From Halovivax gelatinilyticus (GTDB taxonomy: Archaea; Halobacteriota; Halobacteria; Halobacteriales; Natrialbaceae), in assembly GCF_024300625.1 (NCBI RefSeq), contig NZ_CP101322.1:633992-697991 (forward strand): 64,000 bases of DNA, given 5' to 3'. Numbering within the stretch: the stretch's first letter is position 1; every line of letters begins with the position of its first letter. Both the position numbers and the translations under genes were made by a program. The notes under the pieces were generated by a model. The model did not search any database. It was not told the DNA's origin and saw only the letters and a list, made by a program, of their open reading frames with translations. Below are positions 2,209-16,966 of this stretch, piece by piece.

Positions 2209-3195
2209 ATGACAGATACACGCATCCGAACCCACGCGAGCGATCGGGAACGAACCGATCAGAAACAGGAGACCGAATCGGTCGGTGCCGACGAGCGCGA
2301 GCACTGCCCGGAGTGTGGCGGCCGGCTCGTCTCCGATCAGGAACACGCCGAAACCGTCTGTACCGACTGCGGACTGGTCGTCGAAGAGAACGAAATCGAT
2401 CGCGGCCCCGAGTGGCGCGCGTTCGACAGCGCAGAGCGGGACAAGAAGTCTCGCGTCGGCGCACCGACGACGAAGATGATGCACGACCAGGGACTCTCGA
2501 CCAACATCGGCTGGCAGGACAAAGACGCCTACGGCAAGTCGCTGTCGAGCCGCCAGCGCCAGAAGATGCAGCGGCTTCGGACCTGGAACGAGCGCTTCCG
2601 CACGCGCGACTCGAAGGAACGAAATCTCAAGCAGGCCCTCGGCGAGATCGACCGCATGGCGAGCGCCCTCGGACTACCGGAGAACGTCCGTGAGACCGCC
2701 TCGGTCATCTACCGCCGGGCGCTCGAAGAGGACCTCCTGCCGGGCCGGTCGATCGAAGGCGTCGCCACCGCGTCGCTCTACGCCGCCGCCCGCCAGGCCG
2801 GCACGCCGCGCAGCCTCGACGAGATCTCGCAGGTGAGCCGCGTCGACCGCATGGAACTCACCCGGACGTACCGATACGTCGTCCGCGAGCTCTCGCTCGA
2901 GGTCAAACCCGCCGATCCGGAGCACTACGTTCCCCGATTCGTCAGCGGACTCGATCTCTCCGACGAGACCGAGCGAACGTCGCGAGAACTGCTCGAGTCG
3001 GCCCGCGGAAAGGGCGTCCACTCGGGGAAGAGCCCGGTCGGACTCGCCGCCGCCGCCGTTTACGCCGCCGCGTTGCTCACCAACGAGAAGGTGACCCAGA
3101 ACGAAGTCAGCGAGGTGGCTAACATCTCCGAGGTCACGATTCGCAACCGCTACAAGGAACTGCTCGAATCCTCGGAGATGGCTGCCCCGGCCTGA
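2209..3195 (+). CDS. tfb: Transcription initiation factor TFB
   Basis: A 328-residue homologue of eukaryotic TFIIB. The N-terminus holds a zinc ribbon with cysteines at 33, 36, 51 and 54 (CPEC and CTDC), followed by the B-finger/linker and two cyclin-like repeats; the second contains the C-terminal helix-turn-helix (about residues 285-315) that contacts BRE. It binds the TBP-TATA complex and recruits RNA polymerase. The length is normal for TFB. Haloarchaea usually carry several TFB paralogues, and I cannot tell which this is. It stands alone, with its own promoter. Confidence 0.95.
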   Translation: MTDTRIRTHASDRERTDQKQETESVGADEREHCPECGGRLVSDQEHAETVCTDCGLVVEENEIDRGPEWRAFDSAERDKKSRVGAPTTKMMHDQGLSTNIGWQDKDAYGKSLSSRQRQKMQRLRTWNERFRTRDSKERNLKQALGEIDRMASALGLPENVRETASVIYRRALEEDLLPGRSIEGVATASLYAAARQAGTPRSLDEISQVSRVDRMELTRTYRYVVRELSLEVKPADPEHYVPRFVSGLDLSDETERTSRELLESARGKGVHSGKSPVGLAAAAVYAAALLTNEKVTQNEVSEVANISEVTIRNRYKELLESSEMAAPA

Positions 3196-3391
3196 ATCGG
3201 ACCGGCGATCGGCGTATGCGTGTCGAGTTCGCGCGCGGATCTGGCGTCCTTTGTTGCACGATTTCGATCTGAGAGTGACTCCTCACCGTCTTTGCACACC
3301 CTTTTTCGGCGTCCGCTTGCGAATGAGCACAGCTCCACGACTTCGATTTCGGGCGACAACGTTTTTGGTGTCTGGTGTGCAATGGCGTGCC

Positions 3392-3571
3392 ATGGACGAG
3401 ACAACGGTCAGTTTACTCTGTCCCGAGTGTACGAAAGATTGGCAGCGACCGCCGTCCGACCTCCCGTCTCCCGCCGACCTCTTTCACTGTCCCAACTGCC
3501 ACGCGAGCCGAAGAACGGCAGAGTTTACGCGAACTGACCGGGACTTACAGACGTTGAAAACGCTCGGTTGA
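3392..3571 (+). CDS. Small zinc-ribbon protein
   Basis: A 59-residue protein with a CPEC motif near residue 10 and a CPNC motif near residue 33, spaced as in a four-cysteine zinc ribbon. Acidic and basic residues flank the core and no membrane segment is present. Such mini zinc-finger proteins are common and conserved in haloarchaea and are mostly uncharacterised. The frame is open further upstream, but MDET at 3392 gives a compact protein and leaves a plausible promoter (AACGTTTTTGG) just before it. The specific role is unknown. Confidence 0.7.
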   Translation: MDETTVSLLCPECTKDWQRPPSDLPSPADLFHCPNCHASRRTAEFTRTDRDLQTLKTLG

Positions 3572-3908
3572 ACCGCTCTCTCGTCACAAAATACGAGTAT
3601 CGCTCCCCTACGAGTGTCAACCTGAGCCTACAGCCGCCGATCCGAGCGAGTAACACTCAATTACCACGATCGTCGACTGCGATGAACGTCGACGGTCCGG
3701 ATTCACCCGTTATGACACCCGAACTATGTGAACAGTCAATTACGTAACGAAACGAAATATTACACGGACTCCTTCACGTGATTTCTCTCAGTCAATCACG
3801 GAGTGAGACGTATCAGGTATCACATACCCAGAGGGGAATATCCCGGGATGCGTGGTAACGCGACTCAGGATAATAATATAACCCTGCAGTTGGTATGGTG
3901 AGTTGGTT
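3572..3908. other. Intergenic stretch with an inverted repeat and the UPF0058 promoter
   Basis: No gene is supported in these 337 bases. It contains an inverted repeat, CGTGATT (3777-3783) with AATCACG (3794-3800), separated by 10 nt, and an AT-rich TATA element AATAATATAA at 3871-3880. The TATA element fits a start about 25 nt downstream, almost at the ATG of the UPF0058 gene (3909). The inverted repeat could be an operator for that gene. Confidence 0.4.
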
Positions 3909-4148
3909 ATGAAGAAGCAGGAGCTCATTCACCTTCACGGACTTCTCGCAGAGGTATCGAACCAGTGTTCGACATGGGAGAACTGCTCGATCGACCTCGG
4001 TGAGTACGAGTCGCTCGGCATTCGACCGACGTCAATTCACAAATCGAAAACGGACCACAAAGACGCTGTTTTTGCGCTTGCGGGCGGTATCACGGAACAC
4101 ATGACGGGATCCGAAGAGACGGAGACCGTCGCGGCAACTGCGGACTGA
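3909..4148 (+). CDS. UPF0058 family protein
   Basis: A 79-residue protein beginning MKKQELIHLHGLLAEV, the typical opening of the archaeal UPF0058 family. It has two helical segments, no membrane helix and a short disordered tail rich in Glu and Thr. The function is unknown. The ATG at 3909 matches the family start; a TTG two codons upstream is not needed. A TATA element at 3871-3880 suggests a nearly leaderless transcript. Confidence 0.85.
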   Translation: MKKQELIHLHGLLAEVSNQCSTWENCSIDLGEYESLGIRPTSIHKSKTDHKDAVFALAGGITEHMTGSEETETVAATAD

Positions 4149-4254
4149 TATCATTGCGGTCTCGGTCGTCCCATCGCTCATAGCGGCTGTCACGGACGAA
4201 CGAATCACCTACCTATCTCCTACTGACATCGAGCGTCGAATCGACGACAGAAAA

Positions 4255-4797
4255 TCACTCGACGAGATCTTCGAATTCGGGAAGGACGTCGTCGTCGGTC
4301 GATTCGTCGGTCGACGGCTCGGAGTCGCCGAGTTCGTCTGCGACCGCGTCGAGTTGCTCGTCGAAGTCCGGATCCACATCGTCTTCGTCCGACTTCACGT
4401 CTGACTCTTCGCCATCGTCGTCGGATTCGACAGACTCGTCGGTCGAGTCGTCCTCGTCTTCGTCCGGTAACTCTTCGACCTCGAGGACTTCGAGCGGGAT
4501 GTTTTCGAGTCGCTGGCCGATCTCCTTTCTCGCGATTCGTGCGGCGTGTTCGTCGCGCTCGACGTTGAACACGGTCATCTCGAGTTCGAGCGCGACGAGC
4601 GCCTCGTCGGCCGCGATGAACGCGGGTGGCAACTCCTCACCGGACGGCGAAGTCCGCTCGCCCATATTGATCTCGACGTAATTTAGATCGGGATTCAACA
4701 TCTCACCAGTCTTCGAAATCGCGATCCGAATCGCTTCATCCGGCGTACTCACGTCGAACACCGGAACGGCGGCTTCGACGACGACCCGACAGTGCAT
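4255..4797 (-). CDS. UPF0212/DUF555 family protein with acidic tail
   Basis: A 180-residue protein. Residues 1 to about 115 match the archaeal UPF0212 (DUF555) family: VFDVSTPDEAIRIAISKTG, then LNPDLNYVEI, then a segment AFIAADEALVALELEM followed by TVFNVERDEHAARIA. The last 65 residues are an Asp/Glu/Ser-rich low-complexity tail, probably disordered. Methanogen relatives, as I remember them, carry a Cys pair in the middle of the domain; here the equivalent reads RTSPSGEELPP with no cysteine, so a metal site has been lost or never existed. The function is unknown. Confidence 0.8.
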   Translation of the reverse strand: MHCRVVVEAAVPVFDVSTPDEAIRIAISKTGEMLNPDLNYVEINMGERTSPSGEELPPAFIAADEALVALELEMTVFNVERDEHAARIARKEIGQRLENIPLEVLEVEELPDEDEDDSTDESVESDDDGEESDVKSDEDDVDPDFDEQLDAVADELGDSEPSTDESTDDDVLPEFEDLVE

Positions 4798-4935
4798 GAC
4801 TCGCTATTCGGTGGCATGCAGTATCAAGGTTCGCCCCGGTGTCGACCGATGGACCGTCGTGGGCCCCGTTCGCGCCAACGGCCCGACGATCCCGTGTCGA
4901 AACGCAAATGGCCGTCCGTCCGCTCTGACCGACCG

Positions 4936-5838
4936 ATGGAAACGGGGTCGATTTCGAACGACGAACTCGTCGGCGGGTTCGACGCGTTCCTGACGATCGA
5001 GAGCGGACAGACCTACCGCTGGACGCGAAGCGACGGCGCGATCTACGCCGGCCGGCAGAACCCCGACGCCTGGTACGAACTCGCGATCGACGGCGAGGTC
5101 GTCAGGGCTCGCCCGACCGAAACCGGCCTGAAGTGGCGGTCGACGACCGACGCCGATCCGATCTTGAGGCGGCGACTCCGGCTCGACGACGACCTAGAGC
5201 GGATCGTCGCCGCCGCGCCGGACGACCCATTGCTCCAGGAGGCGTACGCGGCTCATCGAGGGCTTCGACTCGTGACGGATCCGCCGTTCGGAACCCTGAT
5301 CGCGTTCATCTGCTCGTCCCAGATGCGCGTCGAACGCATCCACCGGATGGTCACCACGCTCGCTCGCGAGTACGGCACCGAACTCGAGTTCGACGGTCAC
5401 ACGTACTACGACTTTCCGACCCCGGAGCAGCTCGCGACGGCAACCGAGGCCGAGTTGCGAGACCTCGGACTGGGATACCGAGCGCCGTACGTCGTCGAGA
5501 CGGCGCGGATGGTCGCCGACGGGGTCGCTCATCCGGAAGACGCCCGAGAGCTGCCTTACGAAGAAGCGCGCGAGTACCTTACCCGATTCGTCGGCGTCGG
5601 CGACAAAGTCGCAGACTGCGTCTTACTCTTTTCGCTCGGCTTCGACGAGGCCGTCCCGCTCGACACCTGGATCAAGACCGCCATCGCCGACTACTACCCA
5701 GACTGCGACCGGGGGAACTACGCGAAGACCTCGCGGGCGATACGCGAGCGATTCGGCGGGACCGACGCCGGCTACGCTCAGACGTACGTCTTTCACCACC
5801 TCAGAACGGGTGCGGCGACCACCGAACCAGTCGAGTAG
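4936..5838 (+). CDS. ogg: 8-oxoguanine DNA glycosylase/AP lyase
   Basis: A 300-residue enzyme of the OGG1/HhH-GPD superfamily. It removes 8-oxoguanine from DNA and can nick the abasic site. The helix-hairpin-helix region reads FVGVGDKVADC; Lys224 matches the catalytic lysine of human OGG1 (GVGTKVADC), and Asp243 in VPLDTWI matches its catalytic aspartate 19 residues later. The N-terminal part (QTYRWTRSDG and following) resembles the OGG_N domain. The frame is open upstream to 4792, but the first 48 codons look non-coding and would overlap the divergent UPF0212 gene; METGS at 4936 is the likely start. Confidence 0.88.
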   Translation: METGSISNDELVGGFDAFLTIESGQTYRWTRSDGAIYAGRQNPDAWYELAIDGEVVRARPTETGLKWRSTTDADPILRRRLRLDDDLERIVAAAPDDPLLQEAYAAHRGLRLVTDPPFGTLIAFICSSQMRVERIHRMVTTLAREYGTELEFDGHTYYDFPTPEQLATATEAELRDLGLGYRAPYVVETARMVADGVAHPEDARELPYEEAREYLTRFVGVGDKVADCVLLFSLGFDEAVPLDTWIKTAIADYYPDCDRGNYAKTSRAIRERFGGTDAGYAQTYVFHHLRTGAATTEPVE

Positions 5839-5907
5839 TCGTCCCAAATCGATAGACTGTCGACACGTATATGATAGGATTCGCCGAATGTGTAGGCGTG
5901 GTCCGGC

Positions 5908-6450
5908 CTACGAGTCAAACTGACAGGTTTTCGTGTCGGAGTTTTTATCAGGATGAATGATTTTTACCGTCGCGAATTCCGGCGGTGTGTTACCGTTTCG
6001 TTCCCAACGGGTCATCACAAACCAATTCTCTCGCGGAGATTCCAGTTCGTCTGGCCAATCGCCTATCGGTAGCTCGAAAATAACGTGTTCGTCATCAATA
6101 GATACATCTGGACACCACATCGAGCGCATCTCCGCATCAAAGTTGCATGCAAATGCGGCAATGAACTCAGCGCTGCCATCAAACTCGAGAAATTCCCGAT
6201 AGACGGGCTCTCTATCTTCATCGATAGTTATCGCCGCTGCTGCCTCGTCGGAGTTCGTGAATAAATCTGCTGTAAACGGTGAGCTGGTCCATCGATCGGC
6301 GTTTTCAGCAAATAATGGTTGGTTGTTTATTCCAAACGCAATATTTTTCATCTGGACCTCGGCGTCGTCGCTAGATAATACATTTGAACAACCTGCACTT
6401 ATCACGGGGAGAGCCACTGCAGCCGTGAGGAGGGACCGTCTGCTATGCAT
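5908..6450 (-). CDS. Haloarchaeal lipoprotein of unknown function
   Basis: A 180-residue secreted lipoprotein. It starts MHSRRSLLTAAVALPVISAG with the lipobox cysteine next (residue 21), so it has a short Arg-Arg n-region, a hydrophobic core and an ISAGC cleavage site. The mature part is soluble, with two cysteines in the middle (ACNF and MWCPD) and one near the end. An upstream ATG at 6462 adds MHAI but would weaken the signal peptide. AT content is a little higher than in neighbours, which suggests accessory status. No known domain was recognised. Confidence 0.7.
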   Translation of the reverse strand: MHSRRSLLTAAVALPVISAGCSNVLSSDDAEVQMKNIAFGINNQPLFAENADRWTSSPFTADLFTNSDEAAAAITIDEDREPVYREFLEFDGSAEFIAAFACNFDAEMRSMWCPDVSIDDEHVIFELPIGDWPDELESPRENWFVMTRWERNGNTPPEFATVKIIHPDKNSDTKTCQFDS

Positions 6451-6620
6451 TATAGCGTGCATCGATGTCCTTTAGCATAAGTTATTTCATGTTTACTTCT
6501 CCCGAGTATAACGAGTGTAACATTCACAATTTGAATGGAGAGTGAGATAGAGGTCCCCCATCAGCACGAGGCGGTGCAAAATGACGGTGGCCTGGTGTTA
6601 GAAGGTGCATCTCGAACCGA

Positions 6621-6884
6621 TCACTCCCGGTAATCGTCGCGACCGCGAATCGCCCAGTAGGCCTGCGAGACGAGCGTGACGAAAAAGACCACCGACAGCA
6701 CCGCGACCACGATTAGTGCAGCCGTGCGACCGAGCAGCCACCACGTTGCGCCGCCGGCGAGGACGACGAAGAGGACGCTCCCCGCCAGTAACTCCGCTAA
6801 CTCGCGAAGCGTCGCCCGACTGGTGGAGACGTCGACGAACTCGTCTTCGAGGCGATCCAGCAGCGACATCGTCGAGTCGTTCAT
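6621..6884 (-). CDS. Small membrane protein
   Basis: An 87-residue protein with an N-terminal soluble helix (LLDRLEDEFVDV), then two hydrophobic segments at about residues 33-50 and 53-73, ending in a charged tail. The start codon overlaps the stop of the upstream nuclease gene (ATGA at 6881-6884), so the two are almost certainly translationally coupled. The function is unknown. Confidence 0.65.
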   Translation of the reverse strand: MNDSTMSLLDRLEDEFVDVSTSRATLRELAELLAGSVLFVVLAGGATWWLLGRTAALIVVAVLSVVFFVTLVSQAYWAIRGRDDYRE

Positions 6885-7999
6885 CGACCGAAGTCACCAA
6901 GGGTCGTCTGGTTTCGCTTCAGCGGCTGCGAATCGTAGCCGTACTCGGTCGCGAGTACGTCAGCGAACGCCTCGTCGTAGCCGTGGTGCGTGTAGACGAG
7001 GTCGGGGTCGATCGCCTCGACGGTCGCGATCAGTTCGTCGAAGTCGCAGTGGTCGGTCAGCGGAAACGTGACGTCGTAACCGCCCCGATACCGGTAGGAG
7101 TCGTCGACGGCCCAGCCGGAAAAGCCCGCCTTCAGCGCGCCGGTCGACTCGGCGATCTCGTCGACCCACCCGCGACGGGACTGATTCGACGGCAGGACGA
7201 CGATCTCGTCCGTGAGCGGATCCCGGGTGGACCGTTCGGCCGAGACGCCGGCTCGCTCGCGCAGTTCGTCCGGGTCAGTCGGTCGGCCCGAAAACTCGAG
7301 GTCGGTCGCCGACGCGATCGCCCGGTTGACGTCGTCGATCGTCGACGTGACGAGAACGTCTCGATCGGCCGCTTCGCGGGCGAGCCACTGCACCTTCTGT
7401 GCGCGTCCGAGCGAGTAGCCGAACAGAAAGAGCGGGCGGTCGTCGTGTTCGCGAATCCACTCGCGGATCGCGGTGTCCAGTTCGGCCTGCGGCGGGAACC
7501 GATAGCGCGGGTGGCCGTAGGTCGTCTCCATCACCAGGACGTCGGCCTCGATCGCCGACGGGTCGAACCCGTCGAGATAGGCCCGATCGCGCGTCGAGAA
7601 GTCGCCGGTGTAGCAGTAGCGGGTTCCGTCGCCCGCTTCGATTATCGCCGCCCGCGAGCCGACGACGTGGCCCGCCGGGACGAGGTCGATGCCGGGTGCG
7701 GACTCGACGAAGTCGAAGTCGACGCCCGTCCGTGCGGTAGCGATCGCCGCCGTCTCGGTCGAACAGACGACCGTCTCGGGGCTCGAACTGAACGTGTGAT
7801 CGGCGTGGGCGTGGCTGACGACGTTGACGTCGCCCGCGGCCGAGCGCGCGTCGGCGACGACCAGCCGGCCCACGTCGAAGTGGATGCCGTCCCGGTGGGT
7901 GACGCGACGATTCACTGGCCGGTGTAGGGTCTGGACCGATGTCGACCTGTCGGTGCGATTCGCTCGACCCGGCGTGTGTCTGAGACGAATCGGAGGCAT
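6881..7999 (-). CDS. Metallo-beta-lactamase/beta-CASP exonuclease (mRNA 3'-end processing type)
   Basis: A protein of about 372 residues with the metallo-beta-lactamase signature SHAHADHTF and further metal ligands (GHVVGSRA, YTGDFST, LTDHCDF), matching the CPSF73-like/COG1236 group. Members are zinc-dependent nucleases of RNA or DNA 3' ends; haloarchaeal copies are annotated as mRNA 3'-end processing exonuclease or ligase-associated exonuclease, and I cannot separate the two. Start choice is uncertain: ATG at 7999 precedes a basic, poorly conserved stretch, while GTG at 7915 starts just before the conserved THRDGIHFDVG. Divergent from acyP, overlaps the next gene by ATGA. Confidence 0.75.
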   Translation of the reverse strand: MPPIRLRHTPGRANRTDRSTSVQTLHRPVNRRVTHRDGIHFDVGRLVVADARSAAGDVNVVSHAHADHTFSSSPETVVCSTETAAIATARTGVDFDFVESAPGIDLVPAGHVVGSRAAIIEAGDGTRYCYTGDFSTRDRAYLDGFDPSAIEADVLVMETTYGHPRYRFPPQAELDTAIREWIREHDDRPLFLFGYSLGRAQKVQWLAREAADRDVLVTSTIDDVNRAIASATDLEFSGRPTDPDELRERAGVSAERSTRDPLTDEIVVLPSNQSRRGWVDEIAESTGALKAGFSGWAVDDSYRYRGGYDVTFPLTDHCDFDELIATVEAIDPDLVYTHHGYDEAFADVLATEYGYDSQPLKRNQTTLGDFGR

Positions 8000-11070: not shown

Positions 11071-12105
11071 ATGACCGAGGGGCAGGACGGACCTGCGGGA
11101 GACGAGAAGCCGACACCGGATCCGGAACCCGTCGCCGATCCGAGTGACGCGTTCCAGGCGCTCGGGAACGAGATCAGGACGGACATCCTGTCGACGGTCC
11201 TCGACGCCTCGGATCGCGACACCGCCAGCCTCTCCTTTTCGACGCTGTTCGACGCGTCAGACGTCGACACCACGGCGGGATTCTCCTATCACCTCGACGA
11301 ACTCGTCGGGCCGTACCTCGAGAAGGACGACAGCGGCTACGCGTTGACCTACGCCGGGCGCAAGGTCGCCCGTGCCGTCGAGGCGGGCGCCTACACGGAC
11401 CGGGTGTCTGGGTCGTCGGTCCCCATCGACGATCCGTGTCCGTTCTGTGCGGAGCCTCGTCTCGCAGCGACGACGAGCGACAACGTGGTGACGATCGACT
11501 GCGGTGACTGCGATCGATCGATCCTCACGCTCGGCTTCCCGCCGACGGGCTTTACCGCCCACGAGGATCGCCTCCCCGAGGCGTTCGACCGCCATCACCG
11601 CCATCGGCTCTCCCTGCTTTCCGACGGGGTTTGTCCGGAGTGTAGCGGACGCGTCGACCGTGACATCACCCCGATCACCGCGGACGGGGGCGAACCGATC
11701 GCACCGGCTCAGTCCGACGAATCGGACGCCGTTCCGGAGCCAGTCCAGACGACGTTCGTGTGTCGCCAGTGTGGCTACGACCTCCGCTGTCCCGTCACGC
11801 TCACCGTCCTCGAGCACCCGGCCGTCGTGTCATTTTACGACGATCACGACGAATCGGTCCGGGAGCGTCCCATCTGGAACGTCGGCCGCGAGTGGCGCGA
11901 GACGCCGCTTTCGTACGACCCGATCGCCGTCTGCGTCTCCGTTACGCTAGAGGAGGAGACGCTGGAGTGTTACGTCGACGAAACGGGATCGGTCGTCACA
12001 ACGCGACGACTCGACGAATCGAGCGGAGACAGCGAGTCGAGTCGTGCAGGCGACGACGCGACCGATGTCGACGCCGAGTCGGCCGCGAAAGCGGACGCCG
12101 CCTGA
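11071..12105 (+). CDS. ArsR-like winged-helix regulator with zinc-ribbon domains
   Basis: A 344-residue protein. Residues about 30-105 form a winged helix (DAFQALGNEIRTDILSTVLD, then FSYHLDELVGPYLEK) of the haloarchaeal ArsR-like type. The C-terminal two thirds have three cysteine pairs or clusters: CPFC/CGDC, CPEC and CRQCG, consistent with two treble-clef or ribbon folds as in haloarchaeal DUF7351-like proteins. It is probably a DNA-binding transcription regulator with a metal-dependent sensor part. The tail is acidic and disordered. It lies 50 bp after moaC with its own likely promoter. The regulon is unknown. Confidence 0.72.
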   Translation: MTEGQDGPAGDEKPTPDPEPVADPSDAFQALGNEIRTDILSTVLDASDRDTASLSFSTLFDASDVDTTAGFSYHLDELVGPYLEKDDSGYALTYAGRKVARAVEAGAYTDRVSGSSVPIDDPCPFCAEPRLAATTSDNVVTIDCGDCDRSILTLGFPPTGFTAHEDRLPEAFDRHHRHRLSLLSDGVCPECSGRVDRDITPITADGGEPIAPAQSDESDAVPEPVQTTFVCRQCGYDLRCPVTLTVLEHPAVVSFYDDHDESVRERPIWNVGREWRETPLSYDPIAVCVSVTLEEETLECYVDETGSVVTTRRLDESSGDSESSRAGDDATDVDAESAAKADAA

Positions 12106-12128: not shown

Positions 12129-12994
12129 TCAGGAGGCCACGTTTTCGAGAACGTCTGCGATCTCCGCTGTCGATCGGCGGGCGGTTGCCGATCCTCGCCC
12201 GATCGTGAGACACTCGTAGGCAGACGGATTCGGCTCATTATCGGTTTTTGCGAGGGCACCGAGCGCCATCGAAACGCCGTCCGAAGCGGTGAGTTCGTCG
12301 GTCGGCGTCGTTTCGAGGACGTCCTCTAGGCGCTCTCTGAGGTCCGAAGTCGCGTCCCCGATACCCACGGCCTGCCAGCCGTACGGCGTCCCGCCGGGTT
12401 CTACCTCGAACAGGTGACCCGTCCCGTCGGCCTCGTCGGTTCCCCGCTTCGGGGTGGAGACACTTCGGGTCGGGTCGACGCCCGCGACCAGCAGTGCGGC
12501 CCCGAACGGTCGCGATCCGGCCGTCTGTGTCGACTCCTGAACGTGATCGGCGAGTGCGGTCGTCACGGACTCGACGGGAGCCCGTTCGCCGTACTGGAGT
12601 CGATGGCGCTGCGCGACCACTCGAGCGTGCTCGACGAGTTGGCGGGCGTCAGCGGCGTGGCCCGCCGACGCGATGGCGAGGTGGTCGTCGACGGGCGGTC
12701 GTGTTCGAGTTCGTACAGCCGACGTTCTGCGCGAAGCTGGTCGACCAGCGACTGTGCATCGCTCACCCCGCCGGCGAAGGCGACCGCTGCGCGATTCCCG
12801 ATCGGTTCGACCTTCTGCATCGACTGGTTCGTTACGAACCGCCCGCCGAGGCTCGCTCGCGCATCCGCTCCGATGACGACGCCGTCGGAACCGGCGAGTC
12901 CGACCACCGTCGTCCCTGTGGTGAGTTCGGTCGATACATCCGCAGTCGTCGTGTGCGCGGTCGTTTCTGGAACCGCGCCGTCGATTCGGTCCAT
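12129..12994 (-). pseudogene. Frameshifted hybrid proteasome subunit (beta-type N-half, alpha-type C-half)
   Basis: Starting at ATG 12994, the product has a beta-type proteasome N-terminus: TTGTTVVGLAGSDGVVIGAD, ASLGGRFVTNQSMQKVEPI, then a first helix AGGVSDAQSLVDQLRAERR ending LYELEHDRP (about 12680). Here the frame breaks. One frame over, the sequence continues directly with an alpha-type segment: DDHLAIASAGHAADARQLVE, HRLQYGERAPVESVTTALAD, HVQESTQTAGSRPFGAALL, then GGTPYGWQAVGIG, ending at 12129. The alpha part repeats the same structural helix, so both parental helices are present. The total of 866 nt is not a multiple of three. This looks like a deletion fusing two neighbouring paralogues and leaving a broken gene. 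A programmed shift or a sequencing error cannot be excluded. Confidence 0.7.
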
Positions 12995-13028: not shown

Positions 13029-13046
13029 GCTAAAATATATTTTAGC
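13029..13046. promoter_or_regulatory. 18-bp perfect palindrome in divergent promoter region
   Basis: GCTAAAATATATTTTAGC is a perfect 18-bp palindrome between the proteasome-like gene (start 12994) and glmM (start 13157). Its AT core can act as a TATA box for the leftward gene, and the symmetry would also suit a dimeric regulator. Confidence 0.5.
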
Positions 13047-13156: not shown

Positions 13157-14581
13157 ATGACGCTGTTCGGGACGGCCGGAATCAGGGGGCCGGTCGCGGA
13201 GACGGTGACGCCGTCGCTGGCGATGGCGGTCGGGCGAGCGGTCGCTCGCGACGCGGAGGGAGCCACCGTCGTCCTCGGATACGACGGACGCGAGACGAGC
13301 GAGACGCTCGCGGCGGCGATGGCCGCCGGGCTCTCGGCCGGTGGAGCGGCGGTCCGACGACTCGGTCGCGTCCCGACGCCGACGCTCGCGTACGCCTCGC
13401 GCGGCCAGCGCGGGGTGATGATCACGGCCAGTCACAACCCGCCGGCGGACAACGGGATCAAACTCTTCTGCGACGGCGTCGAGTACGATCGCGACGCCGA
13501 ACGGGCGATCGAAACGGGCGTCGAAACGGCCCGGGAATCCGCGTGGGATCGGTGGGGGACCATCGAACGGGCAGACGCCATGGGCGAGTACCTGGCGGAC
13601 GTCGCCGCGTACGTCGGCGAGCGATTCGAGGGCCTGAGGGCCGAAGAGGGCCGGCCGCTCGACGGACTCTCGATCGCCGTCGACTGCGGGACCGGCGTCG
13701 GCGGGGAGGCGACCCCGCAGGTGCTCGGCCGTCTCGGCGCCGACGTCACCGCACTCAACGCCAACGTCGACGGCCACTTCCCGGCCAGAGAGAGCAAGCC
13801 CACGCCGGAAACGCTGACCGACCTCGCCGCGTTCCTCGAAGAAGGGACCGACGACCTCGGGCTCGCTCACGACGGCGACGCCGATAGACTCGTCGTGCTC
13901 GGTCCGGACGGGACCGTCGTCCACGAGGACACCGTCCTCGCCGTCGTCGCGGCCCACTACGTCGAGGAATCTACCGCATCCGACCCCGTCGTCGTGACGA
14001 CGCCGAACGCCTCGGCCCGGATCGACGAGCGAGTTCGAGCGGCGGGCGGGCGGGTCGAGCGCGTCCGACTCGGCGCGCTCCACGAAGGGATCGCCCGCGT
14101 CGAGGAGGCGGCGAGCAACGGGACGGCCGGCAGCGCCAGTGAGACGGCCGTCGTCTTCGCCGCCGAGCCCTGGAAACACATCCATCCCGCGTTCGGCGGC
14201 TGGATCGACGGGGTCGTCAGCGCCGCGATGGTCGCCGGCCTCGTCGCGGCGGCGGGCGACGTCGAGACGCTTCGCGACCCGATCACCGAACGACCGTACC
14301 GAAAGGTGAGCGTCACGTGTCCCGACGATCGAAAGGAAGCCGTCATGGCCAAGCTCGATTCGGACCTTCCCGAACGCTTCCCAGAGGGAACGGTCGAGAC
14401 GGACTACGGCGTTCGGATCGAACTCCCCGACGCTTCGTGGCTGCTCGTCCGGCCCAGCGGGACGGAGCCCTACGTCAGGCTGTACGCCGAGAGCGACGAG
14501 GTCGAAACGCTCGTCGCGGTTGCGACGAGCGTGATCGAAGCGGCCGTCGAAGAATCGTCCGATGAAAAACCCTCGCGGTAG
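13157..14581 (+). CDS. glmM: Phosphoglucosamine mutase family protein
   Basis: A 474-residue alpha-D-phosphohexomutase that interconverts sugar 6- and 1-phosphates, most likely glucosamine phosphates for UDP-GlcNAc and glycan synthesis. The phosphoserine loop TASHNPPADNG places the catalytic Ser92; the metal-binding loop is HDGDADRL; the sugar-binding loop AEPWKHI differs from the usual GEESG/GEQSG; the phosphate-binding loop is RPSGTEPYVRLYAES. All four domains are present. It starts MTLFGTAGIRG, typical of archaeal GlmM/phosphomannomutase proteins, which are hard to tell apart by sequence. Confidence 0.88.
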   Translation: MTLFGTAGIRGPVAETVTPSLAMAVGRAVARDAEGATVVLGYDGRETSETLAAAMAAGLSAGGAAVRRLGRVPTPTLAYASRGQRGVMITASHNPPADNGIKLFCDGVEYDRDAERAIETGVETARESAWDRWGTIERADAMGEYLADVAAYVGERFEGLRAEEGRPLDGLSIAVDCGTGVGGEATPQVLGRLGADVTALNANVDGHFPARESKPTPETLTDLAAFLEEGTDDLGLAHDGDADRLVVLGPDGTVVHEDTVLAVVAAHYVEESTASDPVVVTTPNASARIDERVRAAGGRVERVRLGALHEGIARVEEAASNGTAGSASETAVVFAAEPWKHIHPAFGGWIDGVVSAAMVAGLVAAAGDVETLRDPITERPYRKVSVTCPDDRKEAVMAKLDSDLPERFPEGTVETDYGVRIELPDASWLLVRPSGTEPYVRLYAESDEVETLVAVATSVIEAAVEESSDEKPSR

Positions 14582-14621: not shown

Positions 14622-15026
14622 ATGAACGACCTCGTCGAACGCGCGCGCGAGATTCAGCGAACCGCCCACGTTCCCTACTCCGAGTACCGCGTCGGAGCCG
14701 CACTCGAAACGGCCGACGGCACGGTGGTTACGGGCTGTAACCTGGAGAACGTCAACTTCTCGAACAGCCTCCACGCAGAGGAGGTGGCGATCGCCGAAGC
14801 CGTCAAGAACGGCCACCGCGAGTTCACCAGGCTGGCCGTCAGCTCCGACCGGCGTGACGGCGTCACCCCCTGTGGAATGTGTCGCCAGACGCTCGCGGAA
14901 TTCTGCGAGGCCGATCTCGTCGTCGGCTGCGACGAGGGTGACGACGAATCGGGCGAACCGATCGTTGCGGAGTACACCCTGGGCGAGTTGCTCCCGGCGG
15001 CGATGAATCAGGAGTACTTGGAGTGA
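14622..15026 (+). CDS. cdd: Cytidine deaminase
   Basis: A 134-residue zinc enzyme converting (deoxy)cytidine to (deoxy)uridine in pyrimidine salvage. The motif HAEEVA (His51 zinc ligand, Glu53 proton shuttle) and PCGMC (Cys84, Cys87 zinc ligands) are complete, and the N-terminus has the usual PYSEYRVGAAL. The last 180 nt (14847-15026) are repeated at 16681-16860 with about 16 mismatches. Its natural partner in salvage, a nucleoside phosphorylase, lies at 17382. Confidence 0.94.
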   Translation: MNDLVERAREIQRTAHVPYSEYRVGAALETADGTVVTGCNLENVNFSNSLHAEEVAIAEAVKNGHREFTRLAVSSDRRDGVTPCGMCRQTLAEFCEADLVVGCDEGDDESGEPIVAEYTLGELLPAAMNQEYLE

Positions 15027-15138
15027 GACGGTACTCGGTCGGGTGAATGTACTAGATCACGTTCTCGAGTCGATCCCGCAGAATCGTCCGGTGACAGCGC
15101 TTTTTCGCCGTGGACTCGAAGCACACCAGCGTGATCGA
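14847..15138. repeat. Left copy of a direct duplication flanking the island
   Basis: This segment holds the last 180 nt of cdd plus the 3' end of a convergent DUF488 gene. It is repeated in the same orientation at 16675-16966. Over the 180 cdd nucleotides I count about 16 mismatches (about 91 percent identity) and no gaps; the DUF488 part is also closely similar. Confidence 0.85.
15052..15138 (-). pseudogene. 3' fragment of a DUF488 gene
   Basis: Read leftward this encodes SITLVCFESTAKKRCHRTIL then RDRLENVI and a stop, matching the C-terminus of the complete gene at 16868-17326 (SITLVCFENTAKKRCHRTIL). The upstream part is missing: similarity stops at about 15138, where the island begins. It has no start and cannot be functional alone. 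Confidence 0.8.
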
Positions 15139-15256
15139 AACGTTCCTCAAAAGAGTGTCAGAGACGATATTTCTCGCGTACCAGGTATGACACGCGTCGG
15201 ACAACATTATCCCGTTCCAACAGGCGTTTCAGCACGTCAGTACTAGCGTAAGAGGC

Positions 15257-15556
15257 CTACTCACTTTTCGAAAGGCGCAGATCCGACGTTGCTGAGCCCT
15301 CGTGCAACACGAACGTCACGATACCAGCGATGGTTGTCACGCAATAGAGACTGGCTAACTGAATCGTTGACAGCGAGATCGGCCTCGTGTTGACAACTAA
15401 TATCATCAATAAGAACGCCCAAGTAAGTATGAAGAATATCCATCCATAAATTTCCATCCGATCTGCACTCCCTATGATTTCAACCAATATTAATAATATT
15501 AATGATACATATAGTATAATTAGCAACCCGAATATAGTGAAATCCGTAGCTACCAT
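15257..15556 (-). CDS. Small three-helix membrane protein, candidate halocin immunity/export partner
   Basis: A 99-residue very hydrophobic protein with predicted membrane segments at about residues 8-28, 37-55 and 62-84, and a short charged tail. It starts 58 nt after the stop of the upstream halocin-like gene in the same direction, so both could share a transcript. AT-rich codons set it apart from the surrounding chromosome. Small membrane proteins next to peptide toxin genes are often immunity or export factors; that is inference from position only. No known family was recognised. Confidence 0.55.
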   Translation of the reverse strand: MVATDFTIFGLLIILYVSLILLILVEIIGSADRMEIYGWIFFILTWAFLLMILVVNTRPISLSTIQLASLYCVTTIAGIVTFVLHEGSATSDLRLSKSE

Positions 15557-15614
15557 GCGGGAACTCCGATCCGAGCGATTTCATTCACACGTTTGGATTG
15601 CATTCCTAACACCA

Positions 15615-16556
15615 TCAGCACCTAGGCAGTTCTTCGTTAAAGAAGCCCTCCGAAACCCTCATTGAGTCATCATTGGCTACACTAAAGTCGGAGCAATTGA
15701 AATCCTGTTCCAGAAGCCAACTTTGTTCAACATCCTCTTGGACAGTTACTGTACTAGAGAAACAGTGAACAGTCGAAATGCCAGCAAGTCCTGCCCCAAT
15801 TAAACATGAACCACACGTAATTCGTGAAGGGTCAAAAATACAAGCACTACATCCCAACCCAGCAAAACCTGCAGTAGCTATCGCTAATGCCGTACAGCCC
15901 CACTTAGCATCAGACCCGATCTCAACATCGACCCTGCAACAACCGTCTCCACCATCGCCAGGCCCCTCAATTGGGTCAGTTGAATTGGAACCCAGATCAG
16001 TGGAGTCTGTTGCAATTGCATCGTCTCGGAACTCTCGATCCCGAACGCTAATCGTTCCATCATCACACGTTATTACCGAGATCTCATCCCAACCGAACAA
16101 ACCAGTGGCTCGCTTTCTGCGTTCATTGTTCGGAGTAGGAATTTTTCGGACGTGATGAGCAACCGTATTCTGTGGTAAATCTAGGCCCACTGTGTCGTTC
16201 CCGATCCAGATAACGACCATCTCTTCGTCAGCAACGATCTGTCGTCCTGGTATCGTTCTTTCAGCGTCGGCGACGATAAGATCGTAAAAGCCACCGGATT
16301 CCGTATTTGTAACTCGTCTCGCTTCTATTTGGTCTTCCAGAATCTGCCACCCACGTGACTCGTTATGGGATTCGATTTTTTGAAACGCATCGTCGGAAAA
16401 CGCATCTGTAAGGACACGCTGACGAGTATGGCCGTCGAATGATTCGACAGTCACGTCACTCGTATCATCAGCGCTAGTCTCTGCACTAGCTGAATTCACC
16501 GAACCGATTCCGATCGACGCCGAACCGATTGATTGAAGTATTTTTCTTCGTTGCAT
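15615..16556 (-). CDS. Halocin C8-like precursor (secreted, cysteine-rich C-terminus)
   Basis: A 313-residue protein. The N-terminus MQRRKILQSIGSASIGIGSV followed by NSASA resembles a Tat signal peptide with cleavage near residue 25. Residues about 30-200 form a soluble domain. Residues 206-313 hold ten cysteines (206, 207, 221, 236, 239, 248, 251, 265, 288, 313) and two Gly/Ala-rich hydrophobic stretches (ALAIATAGFAGLGCSAC and SCLIGAGLAGIS). This plan matches halocin C8 (ProC8): Tat signal, an immunity-type domain (HalI), then a C-terminal peptide that in HalC8 also has ten cysteines. A TATA-like element at about 16575-16585 fits a nearly leaderless start. The cleavage site is not evident. 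The assignment rests on architecture, not on a database match. Confidence 0.6.
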   Translation of the reverse strand: MQRRKILQSIGSASIGIGSVNSASAETSADDTSDVTVESFDGHTRQRVLTDAFSDDAFQKIESHNESRGWQILEDQIEARRVTNTESGGFYDLIVADAERTIPGRQIVADEEMVVIWIGNDTVGLDLPQNTVAHHVRKIPTPNNERRKRATGLFGWDEISVITCDDGTISVRDREFRDDAIATDSTDLGSNSTDPIEGPGDGGDGCCRVDVEIGSDAKWGCTALAIATAGFAGLGCSACIFDPSRITCGSCLIGAGLAGISTVHCFSSTVTVQEDVEQSWLLEQDFNCSDFSVANDDSMRVSEGFFNEELPRC

Positions 16557-16674
16557 ACATCCAATTTCAGCAACAACTATATAATAATTCCCATTGTGAT
16601 TTCTATTGGCCCTAACCTTCGGTTACTTCCTGCTCGTTCTCGACTATCGATAGATACAAACGGTCTCGTCAAAC

Positions 16675-16860
16675 ACTCTCGACCAGCGTGACGGCGTGAC
16701 TCCCTGTGGAATGTGTCGCCAGAGGCTCGCCGAATTCTGCGAGGCGGATCTCGTCGTCGGCTGCGACGAAGATGACGACGAATCGGGCGAACCGATCGTT
16801 GCGGAGTACACCCTGGGCGAGTGGCTTCCCGCAGCGATGAGCCAGGAGTACCTGAAGTGA
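16675..16860 (+). pseudogene. 3' fragment of cdd
   Basis: This encodes DQRDGVTPCGMC through EYLK and a stop, in frame with and about 91 percent identical at DNA level to the end of the intact cdd (14847-15026). The 5' two thirds of the gene, including the HAEE motif, are absent. Differences such as GEWLPAAMSQEYLK versus GELLPAAMNQEYLE show that the copies diverged in separate lineages or are old. Confidence 0.85.
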
Positions 16861-16966
16861 AACGGCGCTACGCGATCGATTCGAGGGCGGATTCGAGTTG
16901 ATCTCGTAGAATCGTCCGGTGACAGCGCTTTTTCGCCGTGTTCTCGAAACAGACCAGCGTGATCGA
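16675..16966. repeat. Right copy of the direct duplication flanking the island
   Basis: Partner of 14847-15138. It carries the cdd 3' fragment and continues into the intact DUF488 gene. Similarity ends just after GTGATCGA (16959-16966), the same point where the left copy (15131-15138) changes into island sequence. Confidence 0.85.

Follow-up and report, generated by a model that had tools for sequence, protein, structure and literature searches.

What the window (the 64,000-nucleotide stretch of Halovivax gelatinilyticus DNA analyzed in this study) carries at 12129 to 12994 on the minus strand is very probably a two-gene accessory proteasome operon that was wrecked by a single deletion of ~0.63 kb, i.e., a deletion pseudogene whose products are nonfunctional. 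A beta-type N-terminal piece followed, in another frame, by an alpha-type piece had been placed here by a preliminary description, and both the arrangement and the position are confirmed by PF00227, NCBIfam models, and trees; this two-piece structure is not a chance match. The window genome is a single contig of 3.70 Mb, in which the core alpha gene (G000:136585) and the core beta gene (G000:3429331), both far from the locus, are intact. Because the core genes are intact elsewhere, the best reading is an accessory proteasome locus that recently became a pseudogene by deletion, not the gene of a chimeric protein.

The remnant of the accessory beta-type gene (beta') occupies 12692 to 12994 and comprises codons 1 to 101, with the C-terminal part gone. 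The remnant of the accessory alpha-type gene (alpha') occupies 12129 to 12692 and comprises the last 187 codons (residues at 12132 to 12692) and the stop, with the N-terminal 70 residues (G004 numbering) gone. The deletion junction lies at 12690 to 12700, with at most a few nucleotides in common. Frame 0 from the ATG at 12994 encodes the beta-type N-terminal part, which begins with MDRIDG, continues through TELTTGTTVVGLAGSDGVVIGADARASLGG and AVAFAGGVSDAQSLVDQLRAERRLYELEHDRP, and ends with LYELEHDRP, where the frame switches at ~12692; the alpha-type C-terminal part then starts with VDDHLAIASAGHAADARQLV and runs through VDDHLAIASAGHAADARQLVEHARVVAQRHRLQYGE and TQTAGSRPFGAALLVAG to ENVAS and the stop at 12129. 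The frame-0 ORF reaches its stop at 12565, giving 143 residues from the beta' ATG, and the alpha frame has its earliest start codon, a GTG, at 12620, within the first helix. The beta' piece matches PF00227 with 71.8 bits over profile positions 3 to 78 and the alpha' piece with 97.2 bits over positions 42 to 175, both far over the cut-off. Positions 42 to 78, which correspond to a strand and the first helix (presumably S5 and H1), are covered by both pieces, in agreement with the earlier observation that the first helix is present twice. The top NCBIfam models are those of the archaeal beta subunit (TIGR03634, 3.9e-21) for the beta' piece and of the archaeal alpha subunit (PRK03996, 2.1e-39) for the alpha' piece; both scores are under the full-length cut-offs because the pieces are fragments.

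When aligned with 12 intact beta' proteins, the beta' remnant retains the propeptide, Thr1, D17, and the K33 equivalent, together with the motifs TELTTG|TTVVGL, GADAR, and MQKVE. The sequence stops at residue 101 and lacks the S129, D166, S169 region, for which the relatives have GSG and ERD..SG. The alpha' remnant lacks the N-terminal helix H0 and the SPDGRLYQVEYA segment, which are present in 15/15 intact alpha' proteins aligned, and keeps the alpha-type core between S5 and the C terminus, with ASAGHAADARQLV and RPFG. Identity to the same-genus proteins is 69 to 73% for the beta' remnant and 59 to 66% for the alpha' remnant. In the trees, the beta' and alpha' pieces group with same-genus beta' and alpha' (SH-aLRT of 98 and 100, respectively) in accessory clades that are distinct from those genomes' own core genes. 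Long branches are seen for some accessory beta rows, and in both trees, as rooted in the drawings, the accessory pair L048 from another family falls on the side of the core genes.

Separate adjacent beta-like and alpha-like genes, which the preliminary description had suggested looking for, are found in 4/4 same-genus genomes examined (G001 to G004). Each has two complete genes at the syntenic site, beta' with 235 to 241 codons and, directly after it, alpha' with 256 to 258 codons. Synteny extends on both flanks across 18-kb stretches, with an intact neighboring gene at 13157 to 14581 on the plus strand, whose product we take to be phosphohexomutase-like, serving as anchor and control. As in pseudogenes generally, the frame is disrupted and intact orthologues occupy the syntenic place. 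One alpha' profile and one beta' profile were used to survey 125 genomes of the family. Strong alpha' matches (at least 351 bits, against 348 or less for the next class of alpha genes) are present in 32 genomes, and strong beta' matches (E value of 1.3e-87 or better) in the same 32. All 32 strong pairs are adjacent on one strand with beta' first, the profile matches being -5 to 115 nt apart, and none of them is fused; the window locus is the 33rd pair and the sole truncated one in this sample. A more diverged pair was located in 8 further genomes (G013, G025, G062, G063, G068, G142, G143, and G145) via the palindrome described below. Thr1, D17, and the K33 equivalent are present in every row of the intact beta' proteins, and the later catalytic-region residues are present in nearly all. 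The preliminary description had also considered that relatives might carry an intact single-type gene in one frame. No such gene spanning both frames is present in the family survey or the 237 fetched loci, both motifs being found in one frame in 0/237; L191, L220, and L235, whose matches are unusually long, consist of adjacent beta' and alpha' genes.

The sequence missing from the window amounts to 634 nt relative to G004 and 628 nt relative to G001, G002, and G003, which rules out a single-base read error, one of the sources previously proposed for the frameshift. The proposal of an unequal deletion between adjacent paralogues is borne out in that the same-genus relatives have both genes, beta-like and alpha-like, intact and adjacent in the order seen here, but the breakpoints are not structurally equivalent. 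Within beta', the cut follows helix 1 (residue 101), whereas within alpha', it lies just 5' of the preceding strand S5 (residue 71 in G004), and it is because of these non-equivalent positions that S5 and H1 occur twice. The longest words common to both junction flanks in the relatives are 4 to 6 nt, and the longest repeats in an intact relative's locus are 12 to 30 nt and imperfect beyond 13 nt; no long direct repeat was found in that locus. Homologous or unequal exchange at matching sites is ruled out by the non-equivalent breakpoints together with the lack of a long common repeat, and the junction fits a deletion with little or no homology.

The deletion is known from one assembly, and it is conceivable, but improbable, that the strain has both intact genes and that the assembly dropped ~0.63 kb. 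The estimated completeness of the window assembly is 95.5%, compared with 99% in the sister genomes, which is in favor of such an artefact. The dN/dS values of both remnants relative to the relatives are ~0.21 to 0.26, those of intact relatives at similar distance being 0.17 to 0.33; an artefactual deletion would likewise leave constraint unrelaxed, whereas the same values, taken with the unmutated upstream palindrome, would fit a young event. On the other hand, the repeats and flank words given above are not long enough to collapse, and internal stops are found in 0/11 neighboring control genes of the window, so that the assembly here is not generally frameshifted. We infer a genuine and recent loss in the organism. 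Ancestrally, the site would have carried a catalytic beta' gene and, within a few bases, an alpha' gene, as it still does in the relatives. A single deletion of ~0.63 kb would have removed ~140 codons from the end of beta' and ~70 codons from the beginning of alpha', leaving the remaining parts joined out of frame. A ribosome starting at the beta' ATG would then make the 143-residue product, in which 101 true residues are followed by a wrong-frame tail and the second half of the fold is missing. In alpha', there would be neither a proper start nor the N-terminal helix, which alpha subunits need for ring assembly. Neither remnant would be able to build a proteasome, and the cell would depend on the core alpha and beta genes, which are intact. 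Both genes are almost certainly dead, and presumably no functional subunit is produced.

The preliminary description had raised the expression of an unprecedented chimera in case the shift was programmed or a read error. Both premises fail, and an expressed chimera is unlikely, since no slippery heptamer (X_XXY_YYZ) is present in any register of the whole gene, no relative has a fused gene, and 628 to 634 nt are missing. The locus was likewise rejected as a programmed frameshift gene because it has no slippery site and its two-frame arrangement is not conserved (0/32 pairs fused). The alpha frame is open across the whole beta' part, with one stop at its natural end, and a shift at any position would therefore read through into alpha'; however, at this G+C content, second frames are often open by chance, and in each fold, one half is either absent or duplicated. 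A novel subunit type with S5-H1 doubled, produced by programmed frameshifting, is accordingly extremely improbable. It is also scarcely credible that one fragment still functions alone, e.g., that the truncated beta' acts on the core proteasome as a decoy or poison subunit. Constraint at the codon level is still seen in both remnants, but constraint measured against relatives mostly records the time before the deletion, and beta' is left without the S129, D166, S169 region and half of the sandwich. Deletion pseudogenes between neighboring paralogues similarly involve adjacent related genes, one deletion, an out-of-frame fusion, and intact copies in sister species, whereas here the breakpoints are non-equivalent, the common sequence is minimal, and there is no exchange at matching sites. 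Genes with programmed ribosomal frameshifting also have two overlapping open frames that resemble one longer product, whereas here there is no slippery site and the arrangement is not conserved. The apparent chimera is an ordinary dead gene, and no new proteasome architecture need be proposed.

A perfect 18-bp palindrome, GCTAAAATATATTTTAGC, is located at 13029 to 13046, 35 nt upstream of the beta' ATG, and this copy is exact although the pair is broken. The palindrome is the putative promoter or operator of the beta'/alpha' locus. In a search of the 125 family genomes allowing up to 3 mismatches, it is found within 300 nt upstream of beta' in 32/33 strong loci (28 exact, three with 1 mismatch, and one with 2 mismatches); the exception is G030, in which the fetched stretch contains a copy with 4 mismatches. 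Nine other matches in the family have at most 2 mismatches, seven of which are upstream of diverged pairs; of the remaining two, one is a second site in G088. The other is in locus L261 (G064:C32:105500-110500), in which the palindrome at 2248 has 2 mismatches and the surrounding 5 kb contains neither a pair nor the regulator gene, both of which are present in some sister genomes; this is possibly a second independent loss. Matches with 3 mismatches occur at 24 other places in the family, and the one that was inspected (G013) is upstream of a diverged pair; a reversed control pattern also matches at 3 mismatches, about 36 times. At the level of the order, the exact palindrome with two more bases is present in 49/392 genomes. 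We opened 30 exact loci (the window copy and 19 loci outside the family among them), and all 30 are upstream of a beta'/alpha' pair, with the beta' start less than 400 nt downstream. Conservation reaches the flanking TAACA and, in many genera, also TTCGTACGCC upstream. The promoter element is thus conserved nearly base for base across families and occurs almost nowhere else among the sites inspected.

The presumed regulator gene, a conserved partner of the pair, lies at 11071 to 12105 on the plus strand, convergent to alpha', and its 344 codons include DUF7347 and DUF7351, which we read as winged-helix-like and zinc-ribbon-type, respectively. The family is multi-copy, with 13 matches in the window genome. 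A close orthologue is found on the opposite strand in 33/33 strong loci, separated from the pair by a gap of -54 to 1522 nt. In the eight diverged loci, the regulator gene is on the opposite strand beyond alpha' at a distance of ~0.25 to 5.5 kb, and two loci of other families show the same arrangement. The largest distance is seen in L267 (G145; 2337 to 7850), where ~5.5 kb separates alpha' from the convergent regulator gene, compared with tens of bases in most genomes, and this gap is a probable insertion. The DUF7347/DUF7351 protein is likely to be the regulator of the pair, and we hypothesize that it binds the palindrome.

Since the palindrome is upstream of 30/30 opened pairs and the regulator gene is present at 33/33 loci, the second proteasome looks privately regulated, and in the window the operator and the presumed regulator appear to outlast their target. 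The catalytic residues kept in beta' and the N-terminal SPDGRLYQVEYA kept in alpha' lead to the prediction that the intact pair forms a working second 20S proteasome or mixes into the core one. It is plausible, though somewhat short of probable, that haloarchaea have a dedicated second proteasome whose operon is switched via a genome-unique 18-bp palindrome bound by the DUF7347/DUF7351 protein, the window lineage being a natural knockout. The haloarchaeal 20S core (PsmA, PsmB, and PsmC; alpha1, beta, and alpha2 in Haloferax volcanii) belongs to the same PF00227 family and has the same alpha/beta division. In H. volcanii, a second alpha subunit is described as a source of variation among core particles (PMC2910475); here, by comparison, a tandem beta'-alpha' pair belongs to non-core clades, and this second set is broken in the window. 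A review (PMC7601130) states that archaea have only two types of proteasome subunit. Our searches of the open-licence literature found neither the accessory pair nor the palindrome nor the DUF7347/DUF7351 protein described, which is weak evidence of absence. The value of the wreck is that it points to an accessory pair scattered across haloarchaea and to a natural loss of that pair. The role of the second proteasome and the time at which it is switched on become testable questions, and the window species, with the pair broken and the presumed regulator and operator intact, is a natural comparison strain.

Several other features were observed in the window. One ORF of a relative in the syntenic block matches the window in two frames (4682 to 4846 and 4897 to 5829), but a frameshift there was rejected, as the ORF was judged to be antisense to a real minus-strand gene. 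An open frame at 2446 to 3192 has 98% protein identity to G004, compared with about 55 to 90% for its neighbors, and looks recently exchanged or mobile. At 14846 to 16966, there are direct repeats of 186 and 74 nt (91% identical, with spacings of 1834 and 1828) that consist of the 3' end of a cytidine deaminase gene and the 3' end of a DUF488-type gene. These repeats flank a 313-aa ORF (15615 to 16556, minus strand) with a twin-arginine-like start, a cysteine-rich C-terminal part, and no Pfam match, which we take to be halocin-C8-like; G002 has an ORF that is 56% identical to it between the same neighbors.
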